Virus record (IMG/VR): IMGVR_UViG_3300033153_009470
Span: 1-27,838 of that record
Length of the DNA: 27,838 nucleotides
Reading direction: 5' to 3' (one strand)
Source: a virus
In this document: positions 4,673 to 12,848 of the stretch, piece after piece
Numbering within the stretch: the first letter of the stretch is position 1
Layout of the letters: every line of letters begins with the position of its first letter
Notes under the pieces: model-generated
What the model saw: the letters and a program-made list of their open reading frames with translations, nothing else
Databases searched by the model: none
What the model was told of the DNA's origin: nothing
Position numbers and translations under genes: made by a program

Positions 4673-5253
4673 TGGCAGAACTAAAAAATTATCATACTAT
4701 TAGATACGGAACTGCAGATGGTGAAATAAAGTTTGGACATATCACACAAGATAATGTTCTTTCATCCGTATTGTTGAGAAATGGTTTAGTGAAAAACCAT
4801 TATATTACGATGGATTCGTCTGGTGATTCTCATCGTAAATATGGAACCATCTGTCGTTCACCTGGTTCGTTTCAGGTAAGGGCAGGTGATAATGTTGAAG
4901 AAGACATACCAGGAGTATATGTTGAAGCAGTCAGTGGTGATTTAGTTCTTCGAGCACCAAGTGGAAGAGTTCGAATAGAAGGAGTCAATATTGATTTGAT
5001 TGCAGCTGGTGCCGATGGTAAAAATGGTGTTATCACTATTGATGGTAATGAAAAAGTACTCTTAAGGGCACAAACCATTGATGTTTCCTCTAAAGTATCT
5101 ACTAGGGTATTCTCTGAGAAGACAGTTGAACTCATTGGTAACGCAATCTTAAATATGTACGGTGGCTTTATTGATTGTGCAGATGGTGCAACAGCAATCA
5201 AAGGTTCAATCCTTCCATCAACAAATGAAATTCAAAACGCAATTAAGCTTTAA
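4672..5253 (+). CDS. Small beta-helical spike-like protein (gp5 C-terminal-like)
   Basis: This 193-aa protein starts in a TAATG overlap with the OB-fold gene. From about residue 83 to 170 it shows short alternating hydrophobic strands broken by Gly/Asn/Asp, such as VEAVSGDLVLRAPSGRVRIE and NEKVLLRAQTIDVSSKVS. This pattern is typical of the triple-stranded beta-helix needles of T4 gp5C and VgrG proteins. The N-terminal part contains a KYGTICRSPGSFQVRAGD stretch that could be an adaptor or small beta domain. Given its place directly after the OB-fold protein, it is a good candidate for the membrane-piercing needle that in T4 is the C-terminus of gp5. A simple baseplate structural protein is the alternative. 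No signal peptide or membrane segment is seen. Confidence 0.55.
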   Translation: MAELKNYHTIRYGTADGEIKFGHITQDNVLSSVLLRNGLVKNHYITMDSSGDSHRKYGTICRSPGSFQVRAGDNVEEDIPGVYVEAVSGDLVLRAPSGRVRIEGVNIDLIAAGADGKNGVITIDGNEKVLLRAQTIDVSSKVSTRVFSEKTVELIGNAILNMYGGFIDCADGATAIKGSILPSTNEIQNAIKL

Positions 5254-5588
5254 TGACTTTAAATATCCCTCATCCACAGAAGAAAGGTAAAAGACTTGAA
5301 TACTCCTCTTTACATGGACCCGAAAATGGTGTATATTATAGAGGTAGATTGAGAGGTCACGATAGAATTGAACTGCCTGAGGTATGGAGAGACCTTGTAG
5401 AAGAACTTTCTATTACAGTATCACTTACCCCAATTGGTATGGAACAAAGTATTATTGTGAAAGGTATTCAAGATAATGCCGTGATATTAGGTTCAAGACC
5501 TGGTATTCCAATTGATTGCTATTATCATGTATATGGTGAAAGAAAAGATGTACCAAGACTCAAGACAGAAGGAAAGAGTAAATCATGA
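5253..5588 (+). CDS. Small virion protein consisting of one IPHPxKxGxRL/ELPxxW domain
   Basis: This 111-aa protein is almost entirely one domain, beginning LNIPHPQKKGKRLEYSSLHG and continuing with VYYRGRL, RIELPEVW, SITVSLTPIGM and CYYHVYGERKD. The same domain forms the C-terminal half of the next two genes, so this is the minimal, stand-alone copy. Similar stretches are known to me at the C-termini of marine phage tail proteins, but no enzymatic role is established and I see no catalytic motif. It starts in a TAATG overlap with the beta-helical gene and ends in an ATGA four-base overlap with the next gene. Position suggests a spike-tip or baseplate component. It could also be a folding or capping module acting in trans; that is inference. 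Confidence 0.6.
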   Translation: MTLNIPHPQKKGKRLEYSSLHGPENGVYYRGRLRGHDRIELPEVWRDLVEELSITVSLTPIGMEQSIIVKGIQDNAVILGSRPGIPIDCYYHVYGERKDVPRLKTEGKSKS

Positions 5589-6361
5589 AGGTACCTGACT
5601 TAAATGTAGGTAAGAGATTATTTGTTGGTCTAGGAAATCCAGAATGTCTGGGTAGAGGACCAGCAGAAATTCGTGGGTCTACTTATATGCAGGGTCCTAC
5701 TATCACAGGGGCCCCAGTATTTCCTAATGTTTGGGGTGCTAGTATGGTTGGACCTCTGGTCAATCCAGAGTCTACACCACCACTAATTCCCGGTACTCTT
5801 TGTATGGGAGTTAGTAACCCATACTCTCTTGCTGTCATTGGTCCAGCTGCATTCATGGGTAATGTTGACACAAACTTTAGTGTCAATGTAGGATTGAATC
5901 TAATTGCTCAAGGAGAGGTAATATCACGTTGTGGACTTCATGTGTTGTCTGCAAAGAAGAACTTTGATATTCCCCATCCATCTAAAGATGGTTGGAGATT
6001 GAGACATACCTGTCCAGAAGCACCAACCAATGATGTATATGTTAGGGGAACAGTTAAAGATGATAATGTCATTGAACTTCCATCTTATTGGAAGGATTTT
6101 GTACATCAGGACTCAATTACTGTTAGTCTGACTCCAGTTGGAATGCATCAAGATATAATCGTTGAGAAAATCGACGAAGATAAAATTTATCTTCACTCAA
6201 AATCAGAAACTCCAATTCATTGTTTCTATCATGTTTATGGTGAAAGAAGTGATGGAGATAGTTTGATTCCAGAGTATGAAGGTACTACACCAGAAGATTA
6301 TCCTGGAGATAATCGACAATATTCAATTTCAGGATTCCATTACGACATTAAGGAGCAATAA
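5585..6361 (+). CDS. Virion protein with glycine-rich N-terminus and shared IPHPxKxGxRL/ELPxxW C-terminal domain
   Basis: This 258-aa protein overlaps the previous gene by four bases (ATGA) and is preceded by AAGGA about 11 nt upstream. Residues 1-120 are rich in Gly, Pro and short hydrophobic strands (LFVGLGNPE, YMQGPTITGAPVFPNVWG, LAVIGPAAFMGNV) and end with CGLHVLSAKKN. From residue 127 the shared domain starts (FDIPHPSKDGWRLRHTCPEA) and runs through IELPSYW, SITVSLTPVGM and CFYHVYGERSDGD to a tail YEGTTPEDYPGDN. The N-terminal half looks like a trimeric beta structure carrying the domain at its end, as in a short tail spike. It is not a PAAR protein despite a GPAEIRG sequence. The exact function is unknown; a role in the baseplate spike tip is inferred from the operon. 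Confidence 0.6.
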   Translation: MKVPDLNVGKRLFVGLGNPECLGRGPAEIRGSTYMQGPTITGAPVFPNVWGASMVGPLVNPESTPPLIPGTLCMGVSNPYSLAVIGPAAFMGNVDTNFSVNVGLNLIAQGEVISRCGLHVLSAKKNFDIPHPSKDGWRLRHTCPEAPTNDVYVRGTVKDDNVIELPSYWKDFVHQDSITVSLTPVGMHQDIIVEKIDEDKIYLHSKSETPIHCFYHVYGERSDGDSLIPEYEGTTPEDYPGDNRQYSISGFHYDIKEQ

Positions 6362-7146
6362 TGACACAATCAGTTTCTGCAGGATTTATACCAAGAAGTA
6401 TTGGAAAACAGGATTGTGCTGATAAACCAATAGGTGGAGCACCTTCTGGAATTTATTCCTACATCTCAAAACCAGACAATAATGATTTAGTAGATGTCAC
6501 ACTTGAGTTAGTTGTTCCACCTTGTGTTCCATATTATCACTCTACCGCACAGATTGATTCATTACTGGTCAATACAAGTATTATTGGTGCTGGTATTATT
6601 AATCTTGCAGGAAAAATTACTTCTGCAGTATCGGTTACTGCACCAATATTCAATGGTACTGCAACAGGTAACAAACCAATTAGTGCCTTTGATATTCCTC
6701 ACATCAAAGATGAAACAAAGAGAGTTAGACATCTCATTCCAGAAGGACCAGAACCAGGAATTTATGTAAGAGGAAAACTAAAACATTCAAATAAGATTGA
6801 ACTACCAGAATATTGGGATGGTTTGATTGACCCAGACACAATTACTGTTACTCTGACACAAATAGGATATTCACAAGACCTTATTGTTGAGGAGATTCAA
6901 TGGGGTAAAATAGTCAAAATCAAGTCTGGTCTTGGTGCTAATATCCATTGTTATTATGAGGTTTGGGCTTCAAGGTGGTTGAATCCTATGGACCATACAG
7001 AAAAACCTCATGTAGTATACGAAGGTGATAGTCCTGAAGATTATCCAGGTGATAATAAAAACTTCTTGATTGGTGGATGGGATTACGATAGACGAGAGAC
7101 CAAGTGGAGGAGAGATGTTGACCTTGACAATGGCCAGATAGAATAG
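6361..7146 (+). CDS. Virion protein, paralogue of the preceding gene with the same C-terminal domain
   Basis: This 261-aa protein has an AAGGAG ribosome binding site five bases before an ATG that overlaps the upstream stop (TAATG). Residues 1-105 are a distinct beta-rich head (SIGKQDCADKPIGG, YSYISKPDNNDLVDVTLELV, IIGAGIINLAGKITSAVSV). From residue 110 the shared domain reads FDIPHIKDETKRVRHLIPEG, then GIYVRGKL, IELPEYW, TITVTLTQIGYSQDLIV and CYYEVWASRW. It ends with YEGDSPEDYPGDN, matching the tail of the neighbour. Compared with the other two copies it has lost the second Pro of IPHP and has WASR in place of YGER, so it is the most divergent. It is the last gene of the hub operon. Function is unknown beyond probable virion structure. 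Confidence 0.6.
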   Translation: MTQSVSAGFIPRSIGKQDCADKPIGGAPSGIYSYISKPDNNDLVDVTLELVVPPCVPYYHSTAQIDSLLVNTSIIGAGIINLAGKITSAVSVTAPIFNGTATGNKPISAFDIPHIKDETKRVRHLIPEGPEPGIYVRGKLKHSNKIELPEYWDGLIDPDTITVTLTQIGYSQDLIVEEIQWGKIVKIKSGLGANIHCYYEVWASRWLNPMDHTEKPHVVYEGDSPEDYPGDNKNFLIGGWDYDRRETKWRRDVDLDNGQIE

Positions 7147-7153
7147 TGTTCAT

Positions 7154-7170
7154 ACCCCCTTGACGGGGGT
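7154..7170 (+). other. Short GC-rich hairpin enclosing a -35 element
   Basis: ACCCCC and GGGGGT form a six-base-pair stem around the loop TTGAC, eight bases after the stop of the hub operon. It has no T-tract behind it, so it is not a convincing intrinsic terminator. The loop plus first stem G makes up the -35 box of the promoter described at 7160-7188. Confidence 0.6.
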
Positions 7171-7188
7171 GCCCAGAACCGTTATACT
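7160..7188 (+). promoter_or_regulatory. Consensus sigma-70-type promoter
   Basis: TTGACG (7160-7165) and TATACT (7183-7188) are separated by exactly 17 bases, each one mismatch from the bacterial consensus. The predicted start of transcription, around 7195, lies just before an AGGAG ribosome binding site and an ATG at 7210. This is a host-polymerase (early) type of promoter, unlike the late-type motifs elsewhere in the window. Confidence 0.75.
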
Positions 7189-7200
7189 AGTAGAGTAGAC

Positions 7201-7205
7201 AGGAG
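7201..7205 (+). promoter_or_regulatory. Ribosome binding site for the 71-aa gene
   Basis: AGGAG lies four bases before the ATG at 7210. It fixes this start and is stronger than most ribosome binding sites in the window. Confidence 0.7.
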
Positions 7206-7209
7206 TTCA

Positions 7210-7425
7210 ATGACCTACAAATCACAAGAAGACCAAGACTTTTTGACCCGTGTTGTAGTTGATACAAGTCTTCGTAAATTTTATCTCTACTCTAGTGAGG
7301 GTAACAGTAAAGTTGTTGACTGTGAGACTGTAGAACAGTTTATGAACGTCCTTGAGTTGGTACGTGCTCTAATCAAAGAGGACGACATTGTTTATGCAGA
7401 ACCTTTGGTATCTTCAGCAGAATGA
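7210..7425 (+). CDS. Conserved-type small acidic hypothetical protein
   Basis: This 71-aa protein is first in the cassette driven by the sigma-70-type promoter, with a good AGGAG site. The sequence is soluble and acidic, with a beta-type segment (TRVVVDTSLRKFYLYSSEG) followed by an amphipathic helix (ETVEQFMNVLELVRALIKE). No membrane segment, signal peptide or catalytic motif is visible. The style is that of small proteins I associate with T4-like cyanophages, but I do not know a function. Its stop overlaps a possible start at 7422 (ATGA). The promoter type suggests expression early in infection, unlike the surrounding structural genes. Confidence 0.65.
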   Translation: MTYKSQEDQDFLTRVVVDTSLRKFYLYSSEGNSKVVDCETVEQFMNVLELVRALIKEDDIVYAEPLVSSAE

Positions 7426-7583
7426 ACTATCCAGACCTTTACGAAGAAATTCTAAAATGTTACGATTATGAGACCAGAAACCCGTCAGTCTATGGAAATG
7501 TTGTTCTCTGCAAAATGGAATCTTCCAAAGGCAGCAAAAAACTGCAATCTTACACAGAAGGAAATGAAAATTACCTTCAATGA
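7422..7583 (+). CDS. Possible small ORF (53 aa) coupled to the 71-aa gene
   Basis: An ATG overlapping the stop of the 71-aa gene (ATGA) opens a 53-codon frame beginning MNYPDLYEEILKCYDYE and ending at TGA 7581-7583. The start is well placed for coupled translation. The second half (residues ~20-53) is low-quality sequence and overlaps the better-looking 58-aa frame starting at 7468. Perhaps only the first ~17 residues are meaningful and an older, longer gene was once read through from this frame into the 58-aa frame. No homologue is recognised. Confidence 0.35.
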   Translation: MNYPDLYEEILKCYDYETRNPSVYGNVVLCKMESSKGSKKLQSYTEGNENYLQ

Positions 7584-7644
7584 ATACTGTGTACTTCATC
7601 CACCAACCTGGGATATAGATGATGAAACAACTATTCATAGTTGA
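7468..7644 (+). CDS. Small protein with helix-turn-helix-like segment (58 aa)
   Basis: This frame (ATG 7468, TGA 7642-7644) encodes a basic, helical protein beginning MRPETRQSMEMLFSAKWNLP. The central part, WNLPKAAKNCNLTQKEMK followed by NEYCVLHPP, has the spacing of a small helix-turn-helix (LPKAA, a turn at NCN, then LTQKEMK), so a DNA-binding role is possible but unproven. The frame overlaps the 53-aa frame upstream and the 93-aa gene downstream (7619-7644). No clear ribosome binding site is seen; translation may depend on coupling. Protein-like composition favours this frame over the overlapping alternative. Confidence 0.5.
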   Translation: MRPETRQSMEMLFSAKWNLPKAAKNCNLTQKEMKITFNEYCVLHPPTWDIDDETTIHS

Positions 7645-7900
7645 TATTGGTAACGGTAGATGTGTTACTCATGATGGACATGTTCAATTAGGTAGTTTTA
7701 AACATTCTTTAGAGAAACACCTAGAACTATGTCCAGAACAAAACTGGCAGGTAACATATTGGATGCCTGACCCATTAGGTAAGAGATATAAGAGAATAAA
7801 TTTCCAACATACTATGAGAGCAAATGAAGGGTCTCCTAGAACTGATAACGCATTAGACAGTCGTCCTAGAGATTTTCCTGATACACCACCTAGCAACTAG
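7619..7900 (+). CDS. Small hypothetical protein (93 aa), last gene of the early-type cassette
   Basis: This 93-aa protein starts with two consecutive ATG codons (7619, 7622), either of which could be used; the upstream ribosome binding signal is weak (GGGAT). The N-terminal part is beta-rich (KQLFIVDIGNGRCVTHDGHV) and is followed by a mixed region with conserved-looking aromatic residues (NWQVTYWMPDPLGKRYKRIN). The C-terminus is polar and Pro/Asp-rich. There is no known family, signal peptide or membrane segment. The start overlaps the 58-aa gene by 26 bases. The stop codon TAG (7898-7900) lies inside the second arm of the intrinsic terminator, so translation and the terminator hairpin occupy the same sequence. 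Confidence 0.6.
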   Translation: MMKQLFIVDIGNGRCVTHDGHVQLGSFKHSLEKHLELCPEQNWQVTYWMPDPLGKRYKRINFQHTMRANEGSPRTDNALDSRPRDFPDTPPSN

Positions 7901-7911
7901 GTGGTTTTTTT
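7885..7911 (+). terminator. Intrinsic (rho-independent) terminator
   Basis: ACCACCTAG (7885-7893) pairs perfectly with CTAGGTGGT (7897-7905) around a three-base CAA loop and runs into seven T residues (7905-7911). It ends the small-gene cassette and insulates it from the next late gene. The stop codon of the 93-aa gene is in the stem. Confidence 0.9.
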
Positions 7912-7915
7912 ATGT

Positions 7916-7923
7916 AATAAATA
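7916..7923 (+). promoter_or_regulatory. Late promoter motif AATAAATA
   Basis: The motif matches the NATAAATA form of the T4-like late promoter (T4 consensus TATAAATA) and lies 29 bases before the ATG at 7953, right after the terminator T-tract. It is the likely promoter of the 1631-aa gene. Confidence 0.6.
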
Positions 7924-7952: not shown

Positions 7953-10900
7953 ATGCCTCTCTCAAGATTAGATAACTTTCTAAAGAACGTAAAAGGAAAT
8001 ATTTTATATGTTGACCCTACCAATCTGGATGCCACAGATGGTATTGAGAACCAGGGCAACTCGATGGCCCGACCATTTATAACTCTGCAGAGAGCTTTGG
8101 TTGAGGCATCTAGATTCTCCTATCAAAAGGGTCTTGATAATGATAGATTTGGACAGACTTCAGTCTGTATCTCTCCTGGTACTCATTATGTTGATAATAG
8201 ACCTGGTTGGATTCCTACGGGTACTCCTGGTTTTGAGTACTTACTTAGAAGTGGAGTCAACTCAAATGATTTCCCACCATTCAGCAACACATCCAACTTT
8301 GATCTTTTAGATAAGAACAATATTCTTTATAAACTCAATAGTATTTACGGTGGGGTCATTGTCCCTAGAGGTGTTTCTATTATTGGTCAGGATCTAAGAA
8401 AGACTGTTATCAGACCTCTATATGTTCCTAATCCAGAAAATAATCTAATTGAAAGATCCGCCATCTTTAGAGTGACTGGTGGATGTTATATGTTCCAGTT
8501 CACTTTGAAAGATGCTGATACAACACAACCAGCATATAAAGACTATACTTCAAATACATATACCCCAACATATTCTCACCACAAACTAACTTCTTTTGAG
8601 TATGCAGATGGTGCCACTCCTGTATCAATTCATGATGACTTCATTAATTATGTCACAGATCGTACTGATCTGGATATGTATTATGAGAAAGTTGGTATTG
8701 CATATGGTTCCGCAAGTGGAAGACCAATTTCACCTGATTACCCAAATGCCGGTGTAGATATCCAACCCAAGATTGATGAATACCGTATCGTTGGACCAGT
8801 ATCTGGTTCTATTGGTATTAGTAGTATCAAGTCTGGAGATGGTATAACACCAACACCTGATGTTAATGTAAAATTGACAGGTGGTCTTTTTGGTCTAAAT
8901 GTTGATACCAATGTTATTATCAACAATGTAACTGATACAAGATATAATGGTACATACCTTGTAACCTCAGTATTGGCTACTGATGAAGATGGAGTTACTG
9001 AATTTACATATGAAGTTCCAGTCACTCCTAGTGATGCATTACCAAATCCTTTAGGTTCTTCTGTAGAACTTTCTTCTGATACTGTAACAAGTTCCTCACC
9101 ATATATTTTCAATGTCTCTCAAAGGTCCATTTACGGCATGTGTGGAATGAATGCCGATGGTGCTAAGGCAGACGGATTTAAGTCTATGGTTGTAGCTCAA
9201 TTCACTGGAATTGGTCTTCAGGTTGATGATAATGCATTTGTACTTTATAATCCACAAAGTGGGTCATTTGATGACTCCAATACAATTCCAAATTTACATA
9301 CAAATATAAATGCTGTCTATAAACCATCATATTCTAATTATCACATCAAGGCATCAAATAATGGTCTAATTCAGTTAGTCTCTATCTTTGCTATTGGTTA
9401 TTCTGAGCAATTTGTAACTGAGTCGGGTGGTGATTTTTCAGTTACTAACTCTAACTCTAACTTTGGTGAAAGTGCTCTAATATCTAGAGGTTATAGAGAA
9501 AAGGCATTTGCACAAGATGATGTTGGATATGTCACACAAGTTATTCCACCACAAGCACTTAAGCCAGAATATACTACAGTTGAATTTCCTGCAATCGATA
9601 TTACAAAAACTGTAGGTGTTGCAGATACAAGTAGAATGTATCTTTACAACTACAATAACCAGGATATACTTCCACCAGGTGTAATCAATGGTTATAGATT
9701 TGGTGCAAATCGTAATGAAACTCTAAATGCAGTTATTCCAGTGGGAGGACAGAGTAAAGGATTTGATGCAAGAGTCGTCATGGCAGACACTGCATATGAT
9801 GTGAATAAAGCAACAGGAATGAAACTGTCGAGAATTGGTAGAAACGTCTCTACTGGTAATAGTATTACCAACTCAACAGCAACATTCACTCAAAACCATC
9901 AATTGATACAGGGTGAGACTGTAAGAGTTATTTCAAATGATGGTAGACTTCCAGATGGTCTTGAATCAAATAGAGTTTATTTTGCAATTGTTGATGGTCT
10001 TCCTCCAAATCAGGTACAATTTGCACAATCATTTAATGATTCTCTAACAGGTGATAAAGTCAATATTAACAATCTTGGTGATACTCTTATTGTACAAAGT
10101 AGAGTTAGTGATAAAGAACCTGGAGATGTTGGACATCCTATTCAATACGATGTCACTGAATCACAATGGTATGTGAATGTATCATCTGCATCCACCGAGA
10201 ATAATTTGTATCCAAAATTGGTTAGTGGTGGACTTGGAAGTATCACATCTAGAACTTATATCATTCGACAAAAGGATTCTAGACAGTCTGATGATAGAAT
10301 TCATCAATTGAGATTTGTTATTCCTGCAAATACAGGTGTATCATCTGCAAGACAACCTCTAGATGGTTATATTCTTCAAGAATCGAGTGATGTTACTGGT
10401 GCAACTAATGCAGAAGTTGCGCTATATTTCAATCCAGGTTCTGTATCGATGAGTAATGATACTCAAATGAGAAACTTTAGTTTCATTGCTGGTGTTGATT
10501 ATAAAGCAGGAATTACATATTACTCAACAGAACTACCACATAGACTTTCTATTGGTTCGAGTGTTATCATCGCTAATGTAAGAAGTACTTTGTTCCCAAC
10601 AGTTGGTTTTGGTAACTCTGGTTATAATGGAACATATGAAGTTAGTGGTATAACGAGTGCAAAAACCTTTGAGGTGAATTCTATTCCTCTTTCTCCTGGT
10701 GATTTTATCAATGATACTTCACAAAGAACTACAAGTCTACCAACATTTAGTAGAAGAAACTTTGCAAAAGACTTCTATGTTTATGATGTACAAACTGTTA
10801 CCGAGTATGTTAATAGTGAGCAAGATGGTATCTATTACTTATCGATACTCAATTCATCAAATGAGCCGAAAGTGTTCCCTTTCAATAAAAAAGAGTATTC

Positions 10901-12848
10901 ATATTCACAACCAGTTACTAACTATTACCCACAGTTAGATAGAGATAATCCAGTAACTGATGCCCCAGCTGCTGAATGTTATGCACTTTCGAATCAACTT
11001 GGAAAAGTTGTAATGGATGACCCCACACATAGCCTTACTAGGGAAACTATGGCTGAATTGTCATTAGGAGTTGGTATAGCAGTTACAGGTATTATATCAA
11101 ATAATGTAGGAACTGCGTATACTATCTTCACTGACGAAGACCACGGACTGAATAGAATTACTGTTCCATCTATCAACAATCCTGGTTCTGGATATGGTGA
11201 TGGTACTAATGCAATTCAGTATTATTATAATGCAAAGTTGGAAAATATCTCAAGTGGTTCAATCGGTGATTATGGTACTGCGTTGGTTACTGTTGATGGA
11301 ACATCTGCTGGTGAAATTATTGATATTCAAATTATGAGTGGTGGTTCGGCATATGTTAATGGCGACACCTTCCGAGTAGTTGGTATTGCAACCACAACTG
11401 GATTTAGTGCAGCAACTGGTAGTGTGAATAAAGTTTATGATAATAGAGGAGATACTTTTACTCTTGGTGGTATTCAGAGTTATGATGGTAAGAATTTCAA
11501 TCATATATATCGAATAGATGCAGTTCCAGAAACTCGTCAAATTGAGGTGAGTCCGGTAGTAAGTTCTCCAGGCATTACTACACTAGGTTATGGTCCAGAC
11601 CAAGTTGCTGGTGGTAGTATAGTACTCTTTGGACCATCTTACAAAACAGATAGTTTTGTTTATAATCAAAATGCAGGTGTTGCAACCGTAACAACTACGT
11701 ATAATAATAATTTTAGAGTCAATAACTCTGTTGTGGTAAGTGGTGCAGGTCAAACATTCTATAACGGTTCGTTTGTTTGTATTGATAAGATTGGACTGAC
11801 TACTGTAGTTCTTGATGTTGGTATCAATACAGTTACTCCTCCAATTGATGGAAATATTGAATTGTTCCCATCTGGTGTGACTGGTAACTTTGGTGACCTT
11901 ATCTCAAGAAATGGAAGACTTGCAGGAAGAGAAAGTCAAATCTATGCGGGTATCTCAACCACATTGTCTACAGCAATTACCAGTAAAACGACTGATACCA
12001 TCAATGTCAATAATATGACTGATTATGATTTCTTGATTGGTGACTATCTTAGAATTGATGATGAGTTGATGAGAATCAAAACTACAGTAAGTAGAACTGG
12101 TGGTTTTACACAACTCAAAGTGTTTAGAGGTGTATATGGTTCTATTGCCAATACTCATTTAGTAGGTGCAGTTGTTAATCGGGTTAGATTCTACCCTGTT
12201 GAATTTAGAAGGAACTCAATTATTAGAGCATCTGGTCATACCTTTGAATATATTGGTTATGGTCCTGGTAACTACTCTACTTCATTCCCAAGTAAACAGA
12301 CAAAGAGACTTACACTATCTCAACAAATCAACGCACAGTCCCGAACGGTAGCTGGTGGTGTTGTCAACTATACAGGTATGAATGATAGAGGTGACTTCTT
12401 CATTGGTAACAAGAGAATTGCTTCTAATACAGGTAGAGAACAAGTGTTCGATACTCCAGTTCAAACATATACTGGTGAAGACCCTTATTCTACTGGTGTC
12501 CGTGATGATGCATCTGATTTCAACTATATTGAAGGTTCCATCTTCAAAGTTGAAAGGAGTATGACAGTTGATGGTGGTGATAAAGGTAATATTCTTTCAC
12601 AGTTCAATGGACCTGTAGAATTTACCAAAAAAGTTACTAGCACATCTGAGCAAGGTATTGAAGCTAACAGTGTCTTTATTCAAGGTAATGCTCTAGTTTC
12701 AAGAAGGTTAACTGTTAGTACATCTATCCCAACAGTTGCTGGTACACCTGGTGATATCGTCTTCAATGCAAATCCAGCAAACAGTGGAACCGTTGGGTGG
12801 GTTTATACAACCAACAATGAATGGAGAACCTTCGGGTCAATCAGTTGA
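7953..12848 (+). CDS. Very large beta-helical virion structural protein (tail fibre / baseplate appendage)
   Basis: This 1631-aa protein begins MPLSRLDNFLKNVKGNILYV. The first 500 residues look like a right-handed beta-helix of the pectate-lyase type: DPTNLDATDG near residue 20, GVIVPRGVSIIGQDLRK near 134, and QLVSIFAIGYSEQF with SVTNSNSNFG near 473. Further on are Ser/Thr-rich beta segments, a GsGY-type module (around nt 11180-11400), and near residue 1431 an ASGHTFEYIGYGPGNY element followed by GDFFIGNKRI. The C-terminus has GTVGWVYTTNNEWRTFG, a common ending in cyanophage structural proteins. The beta-helix and the FEYIG element recur in the 1925-aa protein. It is probably a trimeric appendage contacting the cell. 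Which T4 part it replaces cannot be told. The start is preceded by a weak GAGAA site. Confidence 0.7.
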   Translation: MPLSRLDNFLKNVKGNILYVDPTNLDATDGIENQGNSMARPFITLQRALVEASRFSYQKGLDNDRFGQTSVCISPGTHYVDNRPGWIPTGTPGFEYLLRSGVNSNDFPPFSNTSNFDLLDKNNILYKLNSIYGGVIVPRGVSIIGQDLRKTVIRPLYVPNPENNLIERSAIFRVTGGCYMFQFTLKDADTTQPAYKDYTSNTYTPTYSHHKLTSFEYADGATPVSIHDDFINYVTDRTDLDMYYEKVGIAYGSASGRPISPDYPNAGVDIQPKIDEYRIVGPVSGSIGISSIKSGDGITPTPDVNVKLTGGLFGLNVDTNVIINNVTDTRYNGTYLVTSVLATDEDGVTEFTYEVPVTPSDALPNPLGSSVELSSDTVTSSSPYIFNVSQRSIYGMCGMNADGAKADGFKSMVVAQFTGIGLQVDDNAFVLYNPQSGSFDDSNTIPNLHTNINAVYKPSYSNYHIKASNNGLIQLVSIFAIGYSEQFVTESGGDFSVTNSNSNFGESALISRGYREKAFAQDDVGYVTQVIPPQALKPEYTTVEFPAIDITKTVGVADTSRMYLYNYNNQDILPPGVINGYRFGANRNETLNAVIPVGGQSKGFDARVVMADTAYDVNKATGMKLSRIGRNVSTGNSITNSTATFTQNHQLIQGETVRVISNDGRLPDGLESNRVYFAIVDGLPPNQVQFAQSFNDSLTGDKVNINNLGDTLIVQSRVSDKEPGDVGHPIQYDVTESQWYVNVSSASTENNLYPKLVSGGLGSITSRTYIIRQKDSRQSDDRIHQLRFVIPANTGVSSARQPLDGYILQESSDVTGATNAEVALYFNPGSVSMSNDTQMRNFSFIAGVDYKAGITYYSTELPHRLSIGSSVIIANVRSTLFPTVGFGNSGYNGTYEVSGITSAKTFEVNSIPLSPGDFINDTSQRTTSLPTFSRRNFAKDFYVYDVQTVTEYVNSEQDGIYYLSILNSSNEPKVFPFNKKEYSYSQPVTNYYPQLDRDNPVTDAPAAECYALSNQLGKVVMDDPTHSLTRETMAELSLGVGIAVTGIISNNVGTAYTIFTDEDHGLNRITVPSINNPGSGYGDGTNAIQYYYNAKLENISSGSIGDYGTALVTVDGTSAGEIIDIQIMSGGSAYVNGDTFRVVGIATTTGFSAATGSVNKVYDNRGDTFTLGGIQSYDGKNFNHIYRIDAVPETRQIEVSPVVSSPGITTLGYGPDQVAGGSIVLFGPSYKTDSFVYNQNAGVATVTTTYNNNFRVNNSVVVSGAGQTFYNGSFVCIDKIGLTTVVLDVGINTVTPPIDGNIELFPSGVTGNFGDLISRNGRLAGRESQIYAGISTTLSTAITSKTTDTINVNNMTDYDFLIGDYLRIDDELMRIKTTVSRTGGFTQLKVFRGVYGSIANTHLVGAVVNRVRFYPVEFRRNSIIRASGHTFEYIGYGPGNYSTSFPSKQTKRLTLSQQINAQSRTVAGGVVNYTGMNDRGDFFIGNKRIASNTGREQVFDTPVQTYTGEDPYSTGVRDDASDFNYIEGSIFKVERSMTVDGGDKGNILSQFNGPVEFTKKVTSTSEQGIEANSVFIQGNALVSRRLTVSTSIPTVAGTPGDIVFNANPANSGTVGWVYTTNNEWRTFGSIS

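Follow-up and report, generated by a model that had tools for sequence, protein, structure and literature searches.

How does a self-contained block of small genes, with a host-type promoter at one end and a terminator at the other, come to lie among the late structural genes of a marine cyanophage? The initial annotation, made from the sequence alone, placed such a block at positions 7147–7911 and described it as a moron-like or regulatory cassette inserted between two late operons. The comparison with related phages described here leads to a different answer: the block is very probably a conserved slot for non-late transcription inside the late tail cluster of the T4-like cyanophages.

The locus and its neighbors

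The window, meaning the whole stretch of DNA that was analyzed, is an IMG/VR virus record of 27,838 bases from a marine cyanobacterial virus. Its proteins and its nearest DNA matches point to the T4-like Synechococcus phages (RB11-B, RN05-S, S-B05, and S-B43), and these DNA matches cover at most 13% of the query at 78–80% identity. The gene order in the window is a run of structural genes, then the block of small genes, then very long tail fiber genes, and the genes and signals of the locus described below are on the + strand.

The upstream run ends with a structural gene of 261 aa (6361–7146, phrog_28536/17490), and neighbors of this class are also seen in S-SM2, Bellamy, and SynMITS9220M01. 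The downstream border is a tail fiber gene of 1631 aa (7953–12848, phrog_529). Three adjoining structural genes at 5253–7146 (111, 258, and 261 aa) hit the same two PHROGs (17490 and 28536) and look like tandem paralogs. Searches of the window found no Rfam match and no tRNA gene.

A conserved host-type promoter

Ahead of the first small gene are a −35 box, TTGACG (7160–7165), and a −10 box, TATACT (7183–7188), separated by a 17-nt spacer. These are followed by a ribosome binding site, AGGAG (7201–7205), which precedes the ATG at 7210. The site at 7160 has 10 of 12 matches to the sigma-70 consensus. The motif alone proves little, because a generic scan of the window gives 50 promoter-like sites against a chance expectation of 59.

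What separates the promoter from chance is its conservation among relatives. Homologues of the 71-aa first gene were collected from complete phages as well as viral contigs, and the sequence ahead of each was examined over about 110 bases. A sigma-70 promoter with at least 10 of 12 matches precedes the gene in 90 of 94 loci (the window's own copy included), compared to 76 of 1800 random sites (4%) in the same loci; protein identity within the sample goes as low as about 40%, and these counts overstate the number of separate cases, as loci from close contigs are not independent. The spacer is 17 nt long in 71 of 77 distinct promoter sequences. Across 69 distinct promoters with this spacing, TTGAC and TATA.T show little or no variation and the spacer differs over much of its length; 3′ of the −10 box lies a GGTA..CA-like element. 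The pattern CCCCCTTGACGGGGG has at least 119 matches in viral contigs.

A matrix was also built from 59 promoters of relatives, all with a first gene that shares less than 70% identity with the 71-aa gene of the window. When both strands of the window are scored with this matrix, the site at 7160 comes out on top at 20.5 bits, with a gap of 11 bits to the runner-up at 9.7. Judged by its conservation, 7160–7188 is a real host-type (sigma-70) promoter. The near-perfect promoter of the initial annotation is thereby confirmed, and so is its ribosome binding site, in which AGGAG is invariant among near relatives.

In the window, the −35 box is surrounded by a 7-bp hairpin, TACCCCC-TTGAC-GGGGGTG (7153–7171, −12.2 kcal/mol), which was considered as an operator or as a promoter–stem-loop (PeSL) element and rejected in both roles. 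The hairpin is not found in close relatives, and no more than 7 of 38 promoter clusters have inverted repeats across the −35 box and spacer at p 0.05, with sequences that differ from that of the window. For these reasons it is kept out of the explanation given below.

The terminator and the late promoter

At the other end of the block is an intrinsic terminator (7885–7911), in which a 9-bp stem with a CAA loop (7885–7905, −13.3 kcal/mol) is followed by a run of T residues. It overlaps the end of the 93-aa gene. Stem and T-run are as originally described, and they are conserved among relatives. A terminator precedes the fiber gene in 73 of 102 loci, and it does so with 41 different stem sequences, which means that the pairing of the stem has been kept while its bases changed. 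The remaining 29 loci have no recognizable terminator before the fiber gene, so that read-through would be possible there.

Just beyond the terminator lies the late promoter motif ATAAATA (7917–7923), 36 nt ahead of the fiber ATG. The late promoter motif of S-PM2 is NATAAATA (PMC2984593), and the position expected of such a motif, just ahead of a structural gene, is where it is found at the fiber gene. On the + strand of the window, ATAAATA occurs at 7917, 12848, 16511, 26170, and 27451, in each case at or just ahead of a gene start. There is no excess of ATAAATA in the window (6 found compared to about 9 expected), so it is the position of the motif and not its number that serves as evidence. 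An exact ATAAATA within 45 nt of the fiber ATG, typically at 34–38 nt, is present in 92 of 102 loci compared to 40 of 6150 random stretches. This placement bears out the late-type motifs that had been assigned to the flanking genes. With promoter, terminator, and ATAAATA all conserved, the description of the block as a self-contained unit with a host-type promoter between late-type genes also stands.

The small genes of the block

The block had been credited with three or four small genes, of which three are retained. The first (7210–7425) encodes a 71-aa protein of the DUF7294 family (phrog_662, T4-GC29), which matches the family profile with a Pfam E of 9e-23 and 80.5 bits against a curated cut-off of 27. 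The second (7468–7644) encodes a 58-aa protein of phrog_1308 (T4-GC160). The third (7619–7900) encodes a 93-aa protein of phrog_1134, the 3′ end of which, by comparison with relatives, has been replaced via a deletion into the terminator. The putative fourth gene, an ORF of 53 aa (7422–7583), overlaps the 58-aa gene in another frame, and in most relatives it is interrupted or has no start; it was rejected as a gene. Some of the relatives do keep its first 16 or so codons in frame (7422–7467, DLYEEIL.CYEYETRN), and this stretch is possibly a leader or a remnant. None of the cassette proteins matched any of the defense-system models.

The AlphaFold model of the DUF7294 protein has a simple fold and a pLDDT of 72. 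When this model is compared to the PDB with Foldseek, the ten best matches are FtsH periplasmic domains (best E 0.014, TM 0.51). This likeness is a lead only and may be due to chance; the idea that DUF7294 mimics the FtsH periplasmic domain was set aside, given the weak model and the simple fold.

The 58-aa product is strongly conserved among relatives, and change in its gene is concentrated at third codon positions, which is the pattern of a coding gene. Its AlphaFold model (pLDDT 79) has helices at residues 3–13, 19–25, and 30–43, and the protein is predicted to be a tri-helical helix-turn-helix (HTH) protein with the turn between helices 2 and 3. In the PDB, the top Foldseek matches of the model are nearly all HTH proteins, including sigma-factor domains, with E near 1, which is to be expected of a protein this short. 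Among viral models, its own family comes first, followed by HTH and sigma-region-4 proteins. The predicted structure resembles the HTH domains of sigma factors and those of LuxR type, and a search against known HTH sequence families gave no match. An HTH-like segment, as noticed in the first reading of the sequence, is thus consistent with both the predicted fold and its structural neighbors.

The 58-aa HTH protein is present in 439 cyanophage records, and the homologue in S-SCSM1 was annotated by its depositors as “Rob transcription factor”. In S-PM2 and S-RIM44, homologues of the gene lie between gp44 and Dam/gp62/regA, which is a non-late setting. Given the predicted fold, a regulatory role for this protein is plausible.

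A slot with fixed borders

Comparison across relatives indicates that the promoter–gene–terminator block is a conserved slot, found at the same place in nearly all T4-like cyanophages (Kyanoviridae). The slot lies between structural genes associated with the gp5 hub and the tail fiber gene. Its order is a host-type promoter, the DUF7294 gene, variable cargo, usually a terminator, and ATAAATA about 36 nt before the fiber ATG. Loci were counted as informative when 2.5 kb or more of sequence was available upstream of the fiber gene; of 77 such loci, 75 carry the DUF7294 gene in the slot, at protein identities as low as about 40%. Complete genomes with this arrangement are S-SM2, SynMITS9220M01, Bellamy, S-SKS1, P-TIM68, S-CAM9, RN05-S, S-PRM1, S-SRM01, P-HM2, and S-SCSM1. 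In these 11 genomes the DUF7294 gene lies 3′ of structural genes, whether gp5-hub-associated or other, and a tail fiber closes the block.

In a second clade (S-SM1, Syn33, S-RIM2, S-RIM8, ACG-2014b, and P-RSM4), the first slot gene is T4-GC341. The S-SM1 member of T4-GC341 belongs to phrog_662, the PHROG of the 71-aa protein, and alignment of the two profiles with hhalign gives a probability of 83% and an E of 9e-6. In the phages of this clade that were read, a sigma-70-like promoter precedes the first gene, with a weak −35 box in S-SM1, and TATAAATA precedes the next structural gene. Phage records with a match number 46 for the 71-aa version and 287 for the T4-GC341 version, overlap included. 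The second slot gene in this clade belongs to phrog_375, “Phd-like antitoxin” (L243 3781–4011 in S-SM1 and L244 3793–4011 in Syn33), and in both phages the annotation shows no evident toxin partner.

From these comparisons, the two ends of the slot, promoter plus DUF7294 gene on one side and late-promoter border on the other, can be regarded as its old, fixed parts.

Variable cargo and piecemeal turnover

The cargo between these borders comprises the HTH protein, other small genes, tRNAs, and metabolic genes. In complete genomes it includes tRNAs, cpeT, 2OG-Fe(II) oxygenases, and a protein annotated as an acyl carrier protein. The distance from the DUF7294 gene to the fiber ATG ranges from 238 to 4658 bp with a median of 1208, and tRNA genes, mostly tRNA-Leu, are found in 50 of 89 blocks. 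In the smallest slots (L074, L077, L079, and P-TIM68), the DUF7294 gene stands alone between the borders and there is no terminator.

Near relatives of the window (L002, L007, L008, and L018) carry a 56-aa gene 3′ of the third gene; this gene (phrog_2818) is found in 79 of the sampled loci. Compared to these relatives, the window shows a deletion of about 280 bases, which took the 56-aa gene together with the last codons of the 93-aa gene and which ends at the terminator (7885–7900). A different loss is seen in L085 (6700–6760) and L086, where the promoter and the DUF7294 gene are absent and the 58-aa gene begins inside the end of a structural gene. A terminator-like hairpin is still present in these two loci, as are the 58-aa gene and one of the 56-aa type, and such genes can therefore do without the promoter. 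Taken together, the deletion in the window and the losses in L085 and L086 indicate that the slot is edited piecemeal.

Alternative origins and related systems

PeSLs are compact elements of a promoter and a stem-loop, repeated between genes. It is conceivable, though unlikely, that the block is a recombination cassette of this type, in which an early promoter and a stem-loop shuffle cargo in and out as in T4-type phages. A sigma-70 promoter at one end, a stem-loop terminator at the other, and shuffled content between them would all fit, with promoter and terminator as the shared sequences and, in the window, a hairpin over the −35 box. In the one case of cargo deletion seen, that of the window, the breakpoint falls at the terminator. 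In PeSLs (reportedly described in Arbiol 2010 and Comeau 2014; see also PMC4503421), a sigma-70-like promoter and a stem-loop terminator bound exchangeable small genes, much as they do in the slot. However, the slot has a single promoter and a single terminator 0.7 kb apart instead of a compact repeated element, and the −35 hairpin is not conserved. In addition, the high density of PeSLs in other T4-like phages is not seen in S-PM2 (PMC4503421).

Two further regions of cyanophage genomes invite comparison. Hyperplastic (hypervariable) regions, such as g15–g18 (Millard et al. 2009, as cited in PMC2984593), resemble the slot in holding variable small genes and host-derived metabolic genes inside a conserved structural module. 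As outlined in that source, they differ from the slot, which lies elsewhere (from the gp5-associated genes to the tail fiber) and is bounded by a fixed host-type promoter and first gene on one side and by a late promoter on the opposite side. The ORFanage region of S-PM2 (PMC4503421) likewise contains variable small cyanophage genes with a host-like promoter upstream. It was rejected as the same locus, given that the first 24 kb of S-PM2, which contain the ORFanage, have no annotated gp5 or fiber gene.

Less probable still is a true moron, that is, a unit of promoter, genes, and terminator gained recently as one block between two late operons. The layout of the block and its variable content are those of a moron, members of families 1308 and 1134 are found at different places in other cyanophage genomes, and phage morons share with the slot their own promoter and terminator and accessory-looking cargo among late genes. 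To this extent the moron-like layout of the initial annotation holds, but not the presence or absence of the block as a whole that such a layout implies, nor its insertion as one piece. The position and the first gene of the slot are conserved family-wide and are not sporadic, as seen in the 75 of 77 loci with DUF7294 at this spot, and the two loci that lack it retain other cargo and a hairpin. Comparison across relatives, which had been proposed as a way to detect gain or loss of the cassette as a block, found no empty site among the loci examined and revealed turnover piece by piece instead. The shared position largely refutes the moron.

Timing of expression

Across six phage genomes, one strand of the genome carries 98 sites of the pattern TTGAC-N18-TATANT and the opposite strand 2, compared to 7 in total for a reversed control pattern, and on this basis TTGAC-N18-TATANT represents a genome-wide promoter class in these phages. 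In S-SM2, it is found directly ahead of the gp45-44-62-regA and gp43-uvsX-gp41 operons, at tRNA clusters, and in the slot. As the slot shares its promoter class with replication operons and tRNA clusters of S-SM2, it is likely expressed before the late phase. On sequence grounds a non-late timing is well supported, but an early one is not. A 2016 study of phage Syn9 by Doron and colleagues is said to have found host-like promoters driving middle genes, and “middle” timing is more likely to fit the slot than strictly “early” timing. The block could also be transcribed by late read-through from the upstream genes. Least probable of all is an inactive promoter-like sequence, with the small genes solely late by read-through from the structural operon: the small genes are co-directional with the upstream run, and in L085 and L086 the 58-aa gene is joined to a structural gene without a promoter, but an inactive sequence would not keep its hexamers and 17-nt spacing around a largely variable spacer, and over whole genomes the promoter class favors one strand.

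Cyanomyoviruses are without homologues of alt, modA/B, motA, and asiA, and their early genes are thought to be transcribed by unmodified host polymerase (PMC2984593). One speculative and rather doubtful possibility is that the 58-aa HTH protein is a phage transcription regulator that replaces the missing AsiA and MotA. It would be encoded in the slot in some lineages and in the gp44–regA replication cluster in others, and it would tune or switch host-type promoters during infection.

In the preferred explanation, that of a conserved non-late slot, unmodified host RNA polymerase with its main sigma factor would start at about position 7195 before the late genes are on. The transcript would cover the DUF7294 gene, the small HTH protein gene, and the third small gene, and would end at the terminator, which would keep early or middle transcription out of the 4.9-kb fiber gene. 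The fiber gene would start later from its own ATAAATA promoter, via phage late factors of the gp55/gp33/gp45 type. Selection would fix both borders of the slot, and for this reason the cargo between them would be exchangeable. The presumed benefit is that this space could take up, swap, and lose small host-interaction genes, tRNAs, and metabolic genes with the virion genes undisturbed.

Significance of the slot

The ocean is rich in T4-like cyanophages, and these phages have many genes of host origin; where such genes are placed and when they are expressed is understood only in part. The block described here, with its variable cargo, belongs to the normal plan of T4-like cyanophages and is not a regulatory cassette special to one phage. 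Such a slot, shared family-wide and held between fixed regulatory borders, would explain how non-late genes can reside inside the tail cluster without disturbing it. It offers a fixed position at which cargo can be catalogued over many contigs, it is a natural place for gene exchange, and it draws attention to two small proteins that are widely conserved and uncharacterized, DUF7294 and phrog_1308.
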